From SAR202 cluster bacterium (lineage in GTDB: Bacteria; Chloroflexota; Dehalococcoidia; Lucifugimonadales; Lucifugimonadaceae), in NCBI GenBank assembly GCA_016872495.1, contig VGZT01000003.1, positions 1 to 64,000 of the forward strand: a stretch of 64,000 nt of DNA, in the 5' to 3' direction. Positions within the stretch are counted from its first letter, which is position 1; each line of letters opens with the position of its first letter. The notes beneath the pieces are model-generated. The model was not told the origin of the DNA and searched no databases. It saw only the letters and a program-made list of their open reading frames with translations. Positions 36,830 to 44,111 of this stretch are shown piece after piece. The position numbers and the translations under genes are program-made.

Positions 36830-37216
36830 GTGACTAGGGCCAGTCTGTTCAGCACGCTGGCGTTCATCGCGCTTGCAGGCGTGTTCGCCCCTCTTGTGGC
36901 CCCGTTGGTCGACCACCATTCGGCCGAGCGCATGCCATACCACGGGCATTTACAGACCCTCCCGGCGCCCCACGACCATGGCCTCGCGATCAGCCACCAC
37001 CATCAGGGCGCTACGAGTGCAATCCCAACGGTGACGGTCCTGCCTGACCGGGACGGGCAGCAGCTGCAGCCGGCGAGCCACGGCGGCGGTGACTTGCTCG
37101 TACGTTTCATATCCCAGTTGGGAGGGGAGGCTGCGTCAAGCCGTTTCCCGTTGGCAGAACCGCGCATTCCCTCCGATCCCCTGGAGAGGCCACCAAAGGT
37201 GCCTCCCCGCGCCTGA
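36830..37216 (+). CDS. Histidine-rich exported protein, unknown family
   Basis: A 128-aa protein from a GTG start with an N-terminal hydrophobic segment (LFSTLAFIALAGVFAPLVAP) that looks like a signal peptide or anchor. The following region is very rich in histidine: DHHSAERMPYHGH, PAPHDHGLAISHHHQ. This suggests metal binding outside the membrane. The rest is Pro/Arg-rich and without recognised domains. It is the first of four genes leading to the CopC-CopD-cytochrome c fusion, so copper is the likely metal by context. No direct evidence separates copper from zinc or nickel. Confidence 0.6.
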   Translation: MTRASLFSTLAFIALAGVFAPLVAPLVDHHSAERMPYHGHLQTLPAPHDHGLAISHHHQGATSAIPTVTVLPDRDGQQLQPASHGGGDLLVRFISQLGGEAASSRFPLAEPRIPSDPLERPPKVPPRA

Positions 37217-37294
37217 TCTTCACTCATTCGAACGAAGATTCGGCCGTCGGCTACGGCGGCCGTAAAACCAGGCGCGCCAGGATACGGAGAAGAC

Positions 37295-37981
37295 ATGCAC
37301 ATCCGAATTCGGCTTTTGACCCTTCTGTCTGTCGTCATTACCGGTCTGGTTCTGGCATCGGCGACGGTGGCCAGTGCCCACGAGCACCGCGAGTTCCACG
37401 GCATGGAATTGACCGTAGGCTTCGGCTCGGAGCCGGCCTACGAGGCGTTTCAGAACGCGGCTGAGATCCGTGTGATGCGCAACGCCGAGAAAGCCCACGG
37501 CGAAGCTGCCAAGGGTGAGCACGGCCACGGCGAGCAGACGCCGGTCCTTGGACTGGAAAAAACGATTCAGGTTGAAGTGACTCACGTGGGAACCGGCATC
37601 GCCACGACTCTGCCAGTGCGGAGGGTGTTCGGACAGCCCGGGCTGTACCGGGCACACCTCGTGCCGACGGCCTCAGGCCAGTACCGATTCAGGTTCTTCG
37701 GGACTATCGAAGGCAAACCGATCAACGAGACGTTCGAGTCGGGTCCCGGCCGTTTCAACGACATCGAGCCCCAGGCCTCGATTCAGTTCCCGGTGAAGGT
37801 ATCGACCGAGCGCGAGCTCGAGGGCGTCGTCCGGTCGGCGGCCTCCAACGCCGATGAAGCCGGCGCCAGCGCCGCCTCGGCGCTGGACCGGGCCACGATG
37901 GCGCTCGCCGTGGGGGTCGTGGGGATTGCGCTTGGCACCACAGGCCTGGTGCTCGCGTTCTCGAAGAGAAAGAAGGCGTAA
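37295..37981 (+). CDS. Exported His-rich protein with C-terminal membrane anchor (copper-module partner)
   Basis: A 228-aa protein. The signal peptide ends in ATVASA and is followed directly by HEHREFHGMELTVGFG, so the mature protein would start with a His-x-His segment, and HGHGEQ adds more. The middle is a beta-rich domain (LEKTIQVEVTHVGTG, PGLYRAHLVPTASGQYRFRF, INETFESGPGRFNDIE). A C-terminal helix, MALAVGVVGIALGTTGLVLA, precedes the basic SKRKKA. I know no named family, but similar domains occur beside copper genes in Actinobacteria and Chloroflexi. Its TAA overlaps the next ATG by one base. Confidence 0.7.
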   Translation: MHIRIRLLTLLSVVITGLVLASATVASAHEHREFHGMELTVGFGSEPAYEAFQNAAEIRVMRNAEKAHGEAAKGEHGHGEQTPVLGLEKTIQVEVTHVGTGIATTLPVRRVFGQPGLYRAHLVPTASGQYRFRFFGTIEGKPINETFESGPGRFNDIEPQASIQFPVKVSTERELEGVVRSAASNADEAGASAASALDRATMALAVGVVGIALGTTGLVLAFSKRKKA

Positions 37982-38151
37982 TGCCGGTCCTCCTGCACAC
38001 GATCGGCGGCGGTGGCCCATGGGATGAGGTGATCGTCCTCAGCCTGATCGGTGGCCTCATGCTGGTGCTGGTCTTGCTCGGGTACAGGAGCTCGCGCCGC
38101 CGCCGGCCCGGTGGAAAAAGCCGGGCCGGCCGGCGGCGCCCGCGCGACTGA
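37981..38151 (+). CDS. 56-aa single-span membrane protein
   Basis: Starting with the ATG in TAATG, directly coupled to the previous gene, this frame encodes MPVLLHTIGGGGPWDEVIVL, then SLIGGLMLVLVLLGYR, then a very basic end (SSRRRRPGGK, SRAGRRRPRD) before TGA. This is one membrane helix with a positively charged cytoplasmic tail. It ends five bases before the CopC-CopD fusion gene. The tight spacing on both sides supports it as real. It may be a small accessory subunit; no family recognised. Confidence 0.6.
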   Translation: MPVLLHTIGGGGPWDEVIVLSLIGGLMLVLVLLGYRSSRRRRPGGKSRAGRRRPRD

Positions 38152-38156
38152 TCACA

Positions 38157-40715
38157 ATGCGCCTTCTGTTGCTAGCCGCGGCCCTGGTCGTCTTGGTGTC
38201 GACGGCGGTCGCCACTGCGCGCCAGGCAAGCGCCCACGCCAACCTCGAAGTTGCAAGCCCGTCGGCGAGTTCGCTGCTGGCTCAGGCGCCGCCCAGGGTG
38301 ATCCTCCAGTTCTCCGAGCCGGTCGAGCCGTCGCTGACCTCGATCCACGTCCTGGACGGTTCCGGCGAGCGGGTCGATCTGGACGACACTGCGACGGCGG
38401 CCGACGACCCAACTGTCGTAAGCGTCAGCCTTCGTCCCCTCGCCGATGGCACATACACCGTGGCGTGGCGGAACGTGTCGACCGTCGATGGCCACGCCTT
38501 ACGGGGAACGTACATCTTCTCGGTCGGGTTCCAGTCTGTGGCCGCACCCGTAACCCAGCAGTCCGGCGCCGCAACGTTGGCCTGGGAACCGTTCTTCCGC
38601 TGGCTCGCATTGCTGGGTGGCACCGGTCTGGTTGGCGGCCTCGTCTTCCGGCTGATGAACCCCGATTTCATCGGCCGTCTCGGGACGCCACCGGCCGACT
38701 CGAACCTGTCCGGAAGGGTCGTTTTTCGAAGCGATCTGGCGATCGTGATCTCCGCCTCCGCATTCGCCACTGGCACATTCCTGCACGGAGCGATCTCTGC
38801 GTCCCTTGCCCTTGGCGTCCCGCTCGGGGAGATCTCAGGAAGCGAGCTTGGGCGCCTCGCCACTACGACCATGTTCGGGAGGCTCTGGGCGCTCAGGCTG
38901 GCGCTTTCCATAGTCGCGGTCGGTCTCGCGTCGCTCCCGTACGTGATGGAGGGCCTCAGGGCGCGCCCCAGGTCAGACCTGCTGCAAGTAGCCGGAGTAG
39001 TCGTCGCCGGGGCAGCGCTGGCGACGCTGAGCCTGACCAGTCATGGCGCGGCGACGCGGCAAGTGGAGCGGTTCGCGACCTTGTCAGATCTCCTGCACCT
39101 GCTGGCAGCAGCGGCCTGGATCGGCGGCCTGCTCCAGATCTCAGTGATAGCACCCGTCTTCTCCAGCCCCGGCGCGGGCAGGCGGCAGACCGGCGCTCTG
39201 GCGACGGCGATCGGACGGTTCTCGACCCTCGCGCTCGTGATGGCGGGCGTGGTCGCGGCGTCCGGCGTTTTCGCGGCATATGTACAGGTCGTAACGCCAC
39301 GGGCGCTCGACACTCCCTACGGGTACGCGTTGATCGGCAAGCTGCTGCTGGTCGTCCCGCTGCTCGGCTTTGCTGCCGCGAATCGTTTCTGGGTGATCCC
39401 GCGCCTGGCCGACGGCCGGTCAGCCTCATGGCTGCGGCGCTTCGCATTGTGGGAGGCGTGCGCGGCGGCCGGCGTCCTGCTGGCCGTCGGTTTCATGACC
39501 GCCCTGGAACCCGCCCGGCAGGTCGAATCCAGGGAGCTCGCCAGCCGTCCCTCGAACATCGAGGTCGCGGATCAGGCAGAAGGCACGGTCGCAGAGGTTT
39601 CGATCCAGCCCGGGACGGTCGGCAACAACGACCTGGTCGTCACGCTCAAGGACCGTTCCGGGCGGCCGATCGAGAACGCGACCGCGGTCGGCGGGCGATT
39701 GCGATACCTCGCCGACGACCTCGGGGAGCCCGTGTACCAGGGGCTGAATCACGGAAATGGAATCTGGTTGATCCACAACGTTCCGGCCGGCATCGCAGGA
39801 AGGTGGCAATTCGAACTGCTCGTCCAGCGCCCGAACGCGTTCGACGCCAACTTCGCGTGGGGCATCGACGTTCGCGCCGACGGCCCGCCGACCTCTCTCG
39901 TAGCCCCGTCGCCTGCCACGGCAGGCATCCTGTTCGGGGCGCAGATCGGCGCGATCGGGCTGGTGCTCGCAGCCGTCGCGTCGCCCCTCGGCGGCTTCTT
40001 CACGACCGCCGGTAGGATCACGATGGGAGGCGGGGTCGTCTGCGTCGCGGCCGGGACGCTAGTGCTGCTGCAGTCGATCCGGGTGGCCGGCCCCGCTCCC
40101 GATGCCGTAAATCCGATCCCGCCGACGCAGGCCTCGATCGATCGAGGTCGAACCTTGTACCTGGCCAACTGCGCTACGTGTCATGGGGAGCGCGGCCTCG
40201 GCGATGGTGAGGCCGCCCTGCAACTCGCGGTACGGCCAGCCGACCTCAGGGTTCACGTACCGCTGCACCCGGATGCTGAGCTCCACCAGTTCGTCAGGAA
40301 CGGCGTCCGCACCATGCCGTCCTTCGGGGGCAGCCTCGAAGAGAACGAGATCTGGGACATCGTTAACTACCTCAGAGCGCTCACCAGCGGGCGTGAGCTC
40401 CCGGCCACGTCCGGGCTGGCCACCGCGACGCCGCAAGCTGCGATTGTGGCCAGCGCGACGGCAGCGCCGACGCCTGCGGCGACCGCCAGCGCGGTCCGGG
40501 CCGTGCCGAGTGCGGCGGCATCTACGCCTGAAGCGGCCGCCACCGGCACCGCATTGCCAACGCCCTTGCCGGCACCGACGCTGACGCCCACGCCGCCACC
40601 ATCACCAGCGCCGCCGCCGACGTCCACCCCATCGCCGTTGCCAACTGCAACGCCTGCTCCCGCGGGCGATCGGTGGAAGGCCACCATCGAGAATTCAGGG
40701 CGGTCTGCATCCTGA
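38157..40715 (+). CDS. CopC-CopD-cytochrome c fusion protein
   Basis: An 852-aa multidomain copper protein. Signal peptide 1-26 ends ASA, so the mature chain would begin with His27. With Asp111 and His113 (DGHALRGTY) this forms the CopC Cu(II) site. A CopD-type membrane domain covers about 142-450 (FFRWLALLGGTGLVGG; LLHLLAAAAWIGGLLQ). Residues ~465-580 form a beta domain resembling the periplasmic YtkA/FixH type, followed by two more helices. A class I cytochrome c follows, with CATCH at 672-676 and probable axial Met720 (VRTMPSF). The last ~100 residues are a Pro/Thr/Ala-rich tail. CopC-CopD fusions are known; an added heme c domain is unusual and suggests that copper handling is coupled to redox chemistry, perhaps for cytochrome oxidase assembly. 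Confidence 0.88.
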   Translation: MRLLLLAAALVVLVSTAVATARQASAHANLEVASPSASSLLAQAPPRVILQFSEPVEPSLTSIHVLDGSGERVDLDDTATAADDPTVVSVSLRPLADGTYTVAWRNVSTVDGHALRGTYIFSVGFQSVAAPVTQQSGAATLAWEPFFRWLALLGGTGLVGGLVFRLMNPDFIGRLGTPPADSNLSGRVVFRSDLAIVISASAFATGTFLHGAISASLALGVPLGEISGSELGRLATTTMFGRLWALRLALSIVAVGLASLPYVMEGLRARPRSDLLQVAGVVVAGAALATLSLTSHGAATRQVERFATLSDLLHLLAAAAWIGGLLQISVIAPVFSSPGAGRRQTGALATAIGRFSTLALVMAGVVAASGVFAAYVQVVTPRALDTPYGYALIGKLLLVVPLLGFAAANRFWVIPRLADGRSASWLRRFALWEACAAAGVLLAVGFMTALEPARQVESRELASRPSNIEVADQAEGTVAEVSIQPGTVGNNDLVVTLKDRSGRPIENATAVGGRLRYLADDLGEPVYQGLNHGNGIWLIHNVPAGIAGRWQFELLVQRPNAFDANFAWGIDVRADGPPTSLVAPSPATAGILFGAQIGAIGLVLAAVASPLGGFFTTAGRITMGGGVVCVAAGTLVLLQSIRVAGPAPDAVNPIPPTQASIDRGRTLYLANCATCHGERGLGDGEAALQLAVRPADLRVHVPLHPDAELHQFVRNGVRTMPSFGGSLEENEIWDIVNYLRALTSGRELPATSGLATATPQAAIVASATAAPTPAATASAVRAVPSAAASTPEAAATGTALPTPLPAPTLTPTPPPSPAPPPTSTPSPLPTATPAPAGDRWKATIENSGRSAS

Positions 40716-42628: not shown

Positions 42629-42760
42629 ATGTGATCATCGTAGCAGTACCCGGAAAGCCATCCAGATCCGCCGGACCTACCGCAAGATGCGGGCCGAGCA
42701 CCGGGTGCTCGGCGCGACGCATCCGACCCTTGCCGAGTGTCAACCGCCTGGAGATCAACC

Positions 42761-43372
42761 ATGCCACGACATTTCTCTGGTACCCGCATGGCCGCCGCGG
42801 CCTGGTCTGGCCTCCTGCTCATCCTCGTAGCCTGCAATGGAGCCAGTTCCGTAGCGCCGGCTGCCAGCCCGACCGCCCCGGGCGGCGCGGTCGGGGCCGG
42901 CGATGCCGCGATCGCAGCGCAGCTACCCCTCGATATCGAAATCACCACTTACCGCAGAGGTGACGTGATCGGCGGCGACCGGGTCCGGCTGTCGAGTGTC
43001 CTGGCCCGGGGCAAGCCGGTGGCCGTCAACTTCTTCGCCGGGCTTTGCCCTCCCTGCCGGGCCGAAATGCCTCATCTCCAGGAGGTGTACGACACCCACT
43101 CCGATAAGTTCATCCTCGTCGGGGTCGATATCGGACCGTTCACGGGCCTGGGCACCAACGCCGACGGGCGGGAGTTGATCGGTGAACTCAACGTGACCTT
43201 CCCGACCGGTTCGACGCAGGACCGCGACCTCGTCCGGCAGTTCCGGGTCCTCGGTATGCCGAGTACGGTCTTTATCAAGCCCGACGGCTCGGTCCACCGG
43301 AAGTGGGACGGCGCCCTGACGCGCGAAAAGTTGGAAGAGCTCGTGCTCCAGCTCGTCGACGCCTCGAAGTAA
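42761..43372 (+). CDS. TlpA-like thioredoxin-fold lipoprotein
   Basis: A 203-aa exported thiol-disulfide protein. The signal sequence WSGLLLILVAC ends in a lipobox Cys, so it is probably anchored on the outer face of the membrane. The thioredoxin domain has FFAGLCPPCRAEMPHLQE (redox pair CPPC) and the cis-Pro segment LGMPSTVFIKPDGS. The ATG at 42761 has GGAG eight bases upstream; an upstream GTG at 42737 is less likely. It pairs with a second TlpA-like gene 43 bp downstream. The likely role is reduction of cysteines in cytochrome c or copper sites outside the cell. Confidence 0.88.
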   Translation: MPRHFSGTRMAAAAWSGLLLILVACNGASSVAPAASPTAPGGAVGAGDAAIAAQLPLDIEITTYRRGDVIGGDRVRLSSVLARGKPVAVNFFAGLCPPCRAEMPHLQEVYDTHSDKFILVGVDIGPFTGLGTNADGRELIGELNVTFPTGSTQDRDLVRQFRVLGMPSTVFIKPDGSVHRKWDGALTREKLEELVLQLVDASK

Positions 43373-43415
43373 GCGCCCGGCCCGGGGCGGACCGCCGGAT
43401 CACGGGGCCGGTAAA

Positions 43416-44111
43416 ATGTCCTCTTACCCGGCAACGATCCCTCGCAAGGTTAATTTGACTGAAATCAAGCCATCCTCGACCGAAGCCGGGGACAACACCC
43501 CGGAAGACCCTTCGACCGAAAGCGAAATCGAGAGCCCCGGGGGCCGGCGCACCCTGGTCCTGATCGCGGTGGCCGTCCCTATCGTGCTGGTCGCCGCGCT
43601 CCTCGTCTGGGCCACGATCCGCGCAGGAGGGCGCGCCGGTGGCGCGTTCGTCAACGATCGCCTCGGCGAGGTCCGCATCGACGCGAAGCAGGCGCCGCCT
43701 ATCGAGCTTGCAAGCCTTGACGGCGTGGAGCTCTCACTGGCCGGCTATCGCGGCAAGGTTGTGATGATCGACTTCTGGGCATCCTGGTGCCCGCCCTGCG
43801 CCCGCGAAACGCCGGTGCTCACCGAGGTCTACAGCCGCTATCGCGACCAGCCGGTCGAGTTCATCGGCATCAGCATCTGGGACCGCGGGCAGGACGCAAT
43901 CAAGTTCGTCAGGGACTTCGACATCCGCTACCCGGTCGCCATCGACCACCAGGGGAAGACCGCGATCGACTACGGCGTCACCGGGATCCCCGAGAAGTTC
44001 TTTGTCGACGCCGAGGGTCGCCTCGTCAAGCGATTTGTCGGACCCATGGACGAGAAGACGCTGTCGGCGATCCTGGACAGCCTCCTGTCGCGGTCGACCG
44101 CCGCCCGCTAG
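43416..44111 (+). CDS. Membrane-anchored TlpA/ResA/CcmG-like thiol-disulfide oxidoreductase
   Basis: A 231-aa protein. About 45 acidic, disordered N-terminal residues precede one transmembrane helix (TLVLIAVAVPIVLVAALLVW), and a thioredoxin domain faces outward. The active site is DFWASWCPPCARETP (CPPC) and the cis-Pro loop GVTGIPEKFFVDAEGR, which matches ResA/CcmG proteins that reduce apocytochrome c before heme attachment. It follows the lipoprotein TlpA gene. With the heme-c-containing copper fusion nearby, a role in cytochrome c or copper-site maturation is plausible, but no Ccm/Ccs heme-handling genes are in the window. Confidence 0.9.
   Translation: MSSYPATIPRKVNLTEIKPSSTEAGDNTPEDPSTESEIESPGGRRTLVLIAVAVPIVLVAALLVWATIRAGGRAGGAFVNDRLGEVRIDAKQAPPIELASLDGVELSLAGYRGKVVMIDFWASWCPPCARETPVLTEVYSRYRDQPVEFIGISIWDRGQDAIKFVRDFDIRYPVAIDHQGKTAIDYGVTGIPEKFFVDAEGRLVKRFVGPMDEKTLSAILDSLLSRSTAAR

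Follow-up and report, generated by a model that had tools for sequence, protein, structure and literature searches.

Current papers leave open at which point, if at all, Cu(II) is reduced on its way through YcnJ/CopCD proteins such as the Bacillus subtilis copper importer YcnJ, for which no reductase is known (PMC12362106, PMC13344008). The question is raised again by a locus of a SAR202 cluster bacterium, in which a single 852-amino acid (aa) protein joins the CopC and CopD domains of such an importer to a cytochrome c. The window analyzed here covers 64,000 nucleotides (VGZT01000003.1 of GCA_016872495.1, positions 1-64,000, forward strand); the fusion gene and its three partner genes lie on the + strand, and residue numbers refer to the 852-aa protein of the window. 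The fusion was read as a YcnJ-type importer with its own cytochrome c, in which heme and copper would exchange an electron when the metal is handed from CopC to CopD, probably with reduction of Cu(II); the probability of this reading was put at about 0.5. We infer copper as the substrate, from the homology of CopC and CopD, as well as the electron exchange and its direction.

A complete reading frame with four domains

The fusion gene (38157..40715) was a complete open reading frame (ORF) encoding, in this order, a signal peptide, CopC, CopD, a YtkA-like domain, two transmembrane helices, a cytochrome c and a Thr/Pro-rich tail (residues ~746-852) that was largely peculiar to the window protein. 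Pfam matches above the curated cut-offs were obtained for CopC (residues 27-123, E 7e-20), CopD (351-446, E 6e-18, 65.5 bits vs a cut-off of 32.1), Cytochrome_CBB3 (660-739, 2e-15) and Cytochrom_C (662-742, 2e-8), and bore out the CopC, CopD and heme c parts of the protein described in a first-pass annotation of this DNA. The CopC domain (residues 27-123; 38235..38525), with the Cu(II) histidine-brace ligands H27, D111 and H113, also matched the CopC domain of YcnJ in the PDB (9c14; Foldseek TM-score 0.94). The CopD membrane domain (residues 144-449; 38586..39503) had eight transmembrane helices in the structure model and carried the conserved residues H296 and H314, either of which may be the counterpart of YcnJ H295. 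The additional beta domain claimed earlier exists (residues 468-573; 39558..39875) and is YtkA-like by Pfam in 4 of 18 relatives (33.0 bits in L126 and 29.4 bits in L125 vs a cut-off of 25.9). The window copy fell below Pfam detection and was assigned via the aligned relatives, with beta-strands in the model and sequence conservation in agreement; no conserved His, Met or Cys was found in this domain among the homologues. Two transmembrane helices (residues 586-644; 39912..40088), seen in the hydropathy and as helices 586-608 and 617-644 in the model, bring the chain back outside ahead of the cytochrome. The latter (residues 651-743; 40107..40385) has the CXXCH and distal Met ligand of a class I cytochrome c, namely the heme-attachment motif CATCH (residues 672-676; 40170..40184) and the axial ligand M720 (40314..40316). 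Across 71 homologues H27, D111, H113, H296, C672, C675, H676 and H704 were invariant, and H314, H700 and M720 were 99% conserved. The first-pass annotation had placed the copper ligands, the CATCH motif and Met720 correctly.

The AlphaFold2 (AF2) model of the fusion, built from 66 sequences, reached a predicted local distance difference test score (pLDDT) of 90.3 and a predicted TM-score (pTM) of 0.79, and contained CopC, eight transmembrane helices, the beta-domain, two further transmembrane helices and the cytochrome. A low-confidence linker at residues 129-139 may give CopC a swing arm, as described for YcnJ (PMC12362106), and by helix count the CopC, YtkA-like and cytochrome domains are all predicted on the outer side of the membrane. 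The CopC-CopD-YtkA order, the histidine-brace CopC, the conserved CopD His and the flexible CopC-CopD linker are shared with YcnJ (PMC12362106, PMC13344008), in which the brace and a CopD His are required for copper-limited growth and the YtkA domain aids the caa3 oxidase (PMC13344008). Both systems have a membrane-anchored operon partner with a mature N-terminal His, which is p228 here and in B. subtilis YcnI, a protein that exchanges Cu(II) with YcnJ (PMC12362106). By contrast, the fusion adds two transmembrane helices and a C-terminal cytochrome c, its partner is not a DUF1775 protein, and two further genes, p128 and p56, are present. The fusion is probably a copper importer of the YcnJ type with an added heme that is functionally coupled to it.

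When species genomes of GTDB were scanned and the best 80 loci were taken (79 of them Chloroflexota, the other labelled Spirochaetales), all four domains were found in one ORF at 71 of the 81 loci, the window included; the remaining loci were cut by contig ends (three), split (two) or without the cytochrome (five). The fusion was present on complete chromosomes, e.g., that of Candidatus Lucifugimonas marina (L076, CP046147.1; SAR202 cluster by taxonomy). Among 60 relatives the fused gene occurred in 18 and a split gene in two more, and a phylum-wide draw of 121 genomes contained both fused and cytochrome-less forms. No full-length relative of the fusion was recovered in a plasmid search. The protein appeared as two overlapping ORFs in L108 and L109, as might be expected if an assembly or gene-calling error had joined two genes by chance. 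However, the same domain order was seen in one ORF at 71 independent loci, several of them on complete chromosomes, which makes such an error extremely improbable; the artefact was rejected, and the cytochrome is not always a separate gene in the relatives.

The histidine pair of the cytochrome and a proposed copper hand-off

Between the heme attachment site and the axial Met, the fused cytochrome carries a His-x-Pro-x-His motif (HVPLH with H700 and H704 in the window; 40254..40268), a candidate copper-contact or electron-entry site. The exact pattern was retained in 67 of the 71 homologues (H700 99%, H704 100%). None of 20 among the best-matching other Chloroflexota cytochromes had HxxxH at the place of H700/H704, and the pair was also absent from related plasmid cytochromes in copper or metal clusters, including the pMOL30 type. 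The PDB entries closest to the fused cytochrome were those of CytC552 from Thioalkalivibrio paradoxus (9vr0/7o9u, E about 3e-22), and Foldseek agreed. CytC552 also has HxPxH; in the alignment H700 fell on its His83 and M720 on its axial Met103. In the published model, His83 is the proposed site at which electrons arrive from the copper enzyme thiocyanate dehydrogenase; the potential of CytC552 is about +250 mV (PMC9456337). Since CytC552 shares the motif and takes electrons from a copper enzyme, the HxPxH motif seems to be linked to the exchange of electrons with copper, and it may serve in electron entry. CytC552 differs from the fused domain in being a separate soluble protein that serves thiocyanate dehydrogenase, not copper import.

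A CopC domain beside a heme is also found in T. paradoxus, in the crystal complex of CopC with flavocytochrome c, where both are separate soluble proteins and Cu(I) release was proposed (5n1t; PMC7529816). Heme-copper exchange at the hand-off is favoured here because Cu(II) in the CopC brace is held too tightly to be reduced by ascorbate (PMC7529816), and yet Cu(I) release has been suggested for this CopC next to a heme. In the proposed mechanism, the partner proteins p128 and p228, followed by the CopC histidine brace, would capture Cu(II) outside the cell. While passing from CopC to CopD, the copper would come near the heme, with H700 and H704 as contact or relay, and one electron would move between heme and copper, while the heme would trade electrons with the respiratory chain via an ordinary soluble carrier. 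The likeliest direction would be from heme to Cu(II), so that copper leaves the Cu(II)-selective brace as Cu(I) and enters CopD; the reduction would be pulled by Cu(I) uptake in CopD, which would carry copper across the membrane. It is quite possible that the covalent heme and H700/H704 form a redox site that changes the oxidation state of copper during membrane passage by drawing on the respiratory chain, and this would be the first recognised redox partner of a YcnJ/CopCD protein. Reduction of Cu(II) by the fusion during import is proposed tentatively.

The domain order and ligands, the outer-side topology, the His pair, the likeness to CytC552, the 5n1t complex, the lack of a CcoG match above the cut-off in 60 relatives and the co-occurrence of p228 (both described below) were counted in favour of the proposed mechanism. 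Several points weigh against it. The direction is conjectural and energetically awkward, with CytC552 at +250 mV (PMC9456337) set against a brace Cu(II) that resists ascorbate (PMC7529816); given these values, reduction would require coupling to Cu(I) uptake by CopD, or a prior shift of the copper to another site. Import by CopD is itself deduced from genetic work on B. subtilis and E. coli. Further, the core function does not depend on the heme everywhere, since five loci keep CopC-CopD-YtkA and p228 without a cytochrome.

Because oxidation is energetically easier, electron flow in the reverse direction is the main rival, although an unlikely one. The heme would then oxidise Cu(I) or another reduced substrate, and CopC, p228 and p128 would bind the Cu(II) for movement or storage, with the respiratory chain replacing oxygen as the acceptor, in the manner of a cuprous oxidase or of the oxidase-coupled permeases Fet3-Ftr1 and FtrABCD. 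This direction suits a Cu(II)-selective brace whose copper resists ascorbate (PMC7529816) and a heme that would lie near +250 mV if it resembles CytC552, itself an electron acceptor (PMC9456337). Related cytochromes also occur in copper-resistance clusters (C. metallidurans pMOL30) and beside a multicopper oxidase (Leisingera). However, pMOL30-type cytochromes are without the His pair, the window operon contains no recognised efflux pump or multicopper oxidase, and the CopC-CopD core serves copper-starvation uptake in B. subtilis, for which external Cu(II) needs no oxidation (PMC13344008).

The pMOL30 cluster resembles the present locus in holding CopC, CopD and a related cytochrome c together in a copper cluster, and differs from it in having them as separate genes in a resistance setting. 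Its cytochrome gene (L137:8620-9444) lies near copK and copM in the cop cluster, and the N-terminal half of the product resembles that of a Rhodanobacter protein (L134) in which a cytochrome c is fused to an FTR1 permease, a parallel to the heme-permease fusion described here. YcnJ-type importers, CytC552 and permease-cytochrome fusions (FTR1) are thus known separately; a description of this fusion or its operon was not found in a literature search that did not cover subscription papers on CopC architectures, where an earlier mention is possible.

Partner genes and separable modules

The three genes before the fusion, first noted as tightly spaced, proved real; all are on the same strand, p56 starts within the stop of p228 and ends 5 nucleotides before the fusion, and their homologues keep the same order in relatives. 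Two points go beyond the first-pass annotation: each partner gene represents a conserved family, and the His pair of the cytochrome is without counterpart in the other Chloroflexota cytochromes compared. No NCBIfam or PHROGs match was obtained for any partner gene, and p128 had no Pfam match either. The p128 gene (36830..37216, GTG start) encodes a 128-aa exported or membrane-anchored His-rich protein with 10 His, whose homologues stand at the same place in relatives; the family motif DHH(Y/F/S)-A-E-x2-P-x-H-x-H follows straight after the N-terminal hydrophobic segment, and the C-terminus is proline-rich. The p56 gene (37981..38151) encodes a 56-aa protein with a single transmembrane helix, preceded in the family by the motif LLHG-x(2-5)-(Y/W)-DE and followed by a basic tail; in many loci a homologue occupies the interval from p228 to the fusion.

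The p228 gene (37295..37981) encodes 228 aa with a signal peptide, an immunoglobulin-like beta-sandwich and a C-terminal transmembrane helix. It was found upstream of the fusion in about 70 of the 81 loci. Strong p228 matches were obtained in 20/20 fusion-carrying and 0/40 other relatives (Fisher p 2e-16, kinship ignored); in G030 it was present, though unlinked from the fusion. In the family alignment the mature N-terminal His29 after the AxA site was invariant, and E46 (100%), E50 (98%) and H97 (92%) were conserved. Judged from these residues, the N-terminal His with E46, E50 and H97 is a candidate for a second histidine-brace-like site, like that of YcnI; no DUF1775 (YcnI) match was found in p228 or its relatives. 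When the AF2 model of p228 (pLDDT 88.6) was searched with Foldseek, the best matches were FetP/P19/FtrA (E 6e-5, TMt about 0.50-0.56), with DUF4426, CrdA and filamin also returned. P19-type Pfam matches were absent from p228 and its relatives at E values up to 1; the likeness lies in the modelled fold, with moderate scores. The window p228 has a His-rich loop where many relatives, mostly of the SAR202 group, insert a cupredoxin-like stretch of about 120-150 aa; Cupredoxin_1 was matched in 7 of 19 p228 relatives (best E 0.0013).

A possible P19/FtrA-like fold together with the cupredoxin-like insert of relatives recalls the parts list of FtrABCD, in which oxidation is proposed to drive transport (PMC11966278), and in this respect p228 speaks for the oxidative direction. 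In FtrABCD/P19-FTR1 iron uptake, too, a P19-like protein, a cupredoxin and a redox partner accompany the metal permease. However, these systems have an FTR1 iron permease in the place of CopD and no CopC.

In p228 relatives, e.g., L076:6715-7761, the C-terminal half of the insert (FHAHP, GSI) seems to precede its N-terminal half (P..V.I..GT.V.F.N), in the manner of a circular permutation. In four loci (L053:7065, L060:7346, L065:1120, L091:7264), p228 is separated from the fusion by a gene for a peroxiredoxin-like lipoprotein. An in-frame TGA interrupts this gene at a shared position (VFYRGFF-TGA-G(V/I)CR), and the frame beyond it is homologous; the product is a probable selenoprotein (UxxC). 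Matches to a selenocysteine tRNA (tRNA-Sec) of 66-70 bits were obtained in five genomes of the group, the window's own included.

The five cytochrome-less loci (L095, L096, L113, L114, L127) kept p228 and CopC-CopD-YtkA, and no cytochrome, p128 or p56 was detected in them. A tree of 76 proteins made by a quick method, unrooted and with long branches, required two changes for the cytochrome-less label, consistent with loss of the cytochrome from a fused ancestor. In G055, p128 was followed by a 241-aa gene that encodes a His-rich stretch, two transmembrane helices and a cytochrome c without CopCD. This arrangement, a stand-alone 241-aa protein with the same type of cytochrome c downstream of a p128 homologue and without CopCD, was recorded at L155:8673-9398 and L025:1267-1992. 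Since cytochrome-less loci and a CopCD-less heme half both exist, the system consists of an import module (p228 and CopCD-YtkA) and a heme module (p128 and the two-helix cytochrome), which in Chloroflexota mostly stand fused or side by side. At L062:10217-10939, directly downstream of the fusion gene, its cytochrome c was encoded a second time as a lipoprotein-like copy, and at L097:7866-10892 the fusion was extended by TPR repeats behind the cytochrome.

These variants bear on a further, rather improbable explanation, in which the importer is gated by the heme as a sensor of copper or redox state, or the heme is a membrane-tethered extra electron carrier without direct copper chemistry. Cytochrome-less versions imply transport independent of the heme, and the CopCD-less half in L025 and the lipoprotein copy beside the fusion in L062 are in line with this explanation. 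However, the L025 protein adjoins the His-rich p128 and has a His-rich stretch of its own, which points to metal, and the His pair was absent from the other Chloroflexota cytochromes compared.

Genome context and the copper target

The search for cupric reductases of the CcoG type (FixG_C) returned none in the window genome and none above the cut-off in the 60 relatives. CcoG, a FixG-type Fe-S protein, and CrpH, a PepSY_TM heme protein, are putative copper reductases of heme-copper oxidase assembly; they resemble the fusion in the proposed change of copper redox state, for oxidase metalation, and are otherwise unrelated to it (PMC13038864). COX1 was found in 59 of the 60 relatives and in the window genome. 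Of the 60 relatives, 4 had NosZ, each of them a fusion carrier (Fisher p 0.01, kinship and genome size ignored); the window genome had none. Genome sizes differed (median 2.6 vs 1.6 Mb), so that streamlining confounds comparisons of presence and absence. Co-occurrence with the near-universal COX1 was uninformative, NosZ was rare, and neither identifies the copper target of the fusion.

SCO1/SenC was not detectable in the window genome, so that loading of CuA needs another factor in this COX1-positive organism. This vacancy, like that of CcoG, was counted for the proposed mechanism; it fits equally well an alternative that is also unlikely, namely that the YtkA domain and the heme dock the importer on the CuA subunit, with which cytochrome c naturally interacts, and aid the metalation of that subunit. 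Fusions of cytochrome c domains to oxidase subunits are well known, as in cbb3 subunit III and caa3. The YtkA domain of YcnJ, moreover, overlaps with CtaK in CuA assembly (PMC13344008). However, COX1 was present in 59/60 relatives and the fusion in ~20, showing that the oxidase does not need the fusion; the YtkA-like domain is without conserved His, Met or Cys; and docking alone would leave the conserved H700 and H704 unexplained.

The first-pass annotation had tied copper handling to electron transfer and offered Cu(II) reduction at import or delivery to a terminal oxidase. With conserved copper ligands and a covalent heme predicted on the same outer side, the tie itself is very likely.

No YcnK-like regulator was recognised next to the fusion, and a role in defence was rejected, as no PADLOC match was obtained. 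Two exported or anchored thioredoxin-fold (TlpA-like) CxxC proteins were encoded at 42737-43372 and 43416-44111 of the window, and both were also seen downstream of the fusion in L038. They are possible copper reductants of the Sco/TlpA type in a genome without detected SCO1; membership of these genes (42737-44111) in the operon was rejected because lepA intervenes on the opposite strand.

Together, the fusion, its heme-less versions and the importer-less heme half put the question of Cu(II) reduction on import within reach of a direct test. Members of the family occur widely among Chloroflexota, also in the SAR202 group and in a species whose genome is complete, and if the proposed mechanism is true, it would represent a new route of redox-coupled metal transport.

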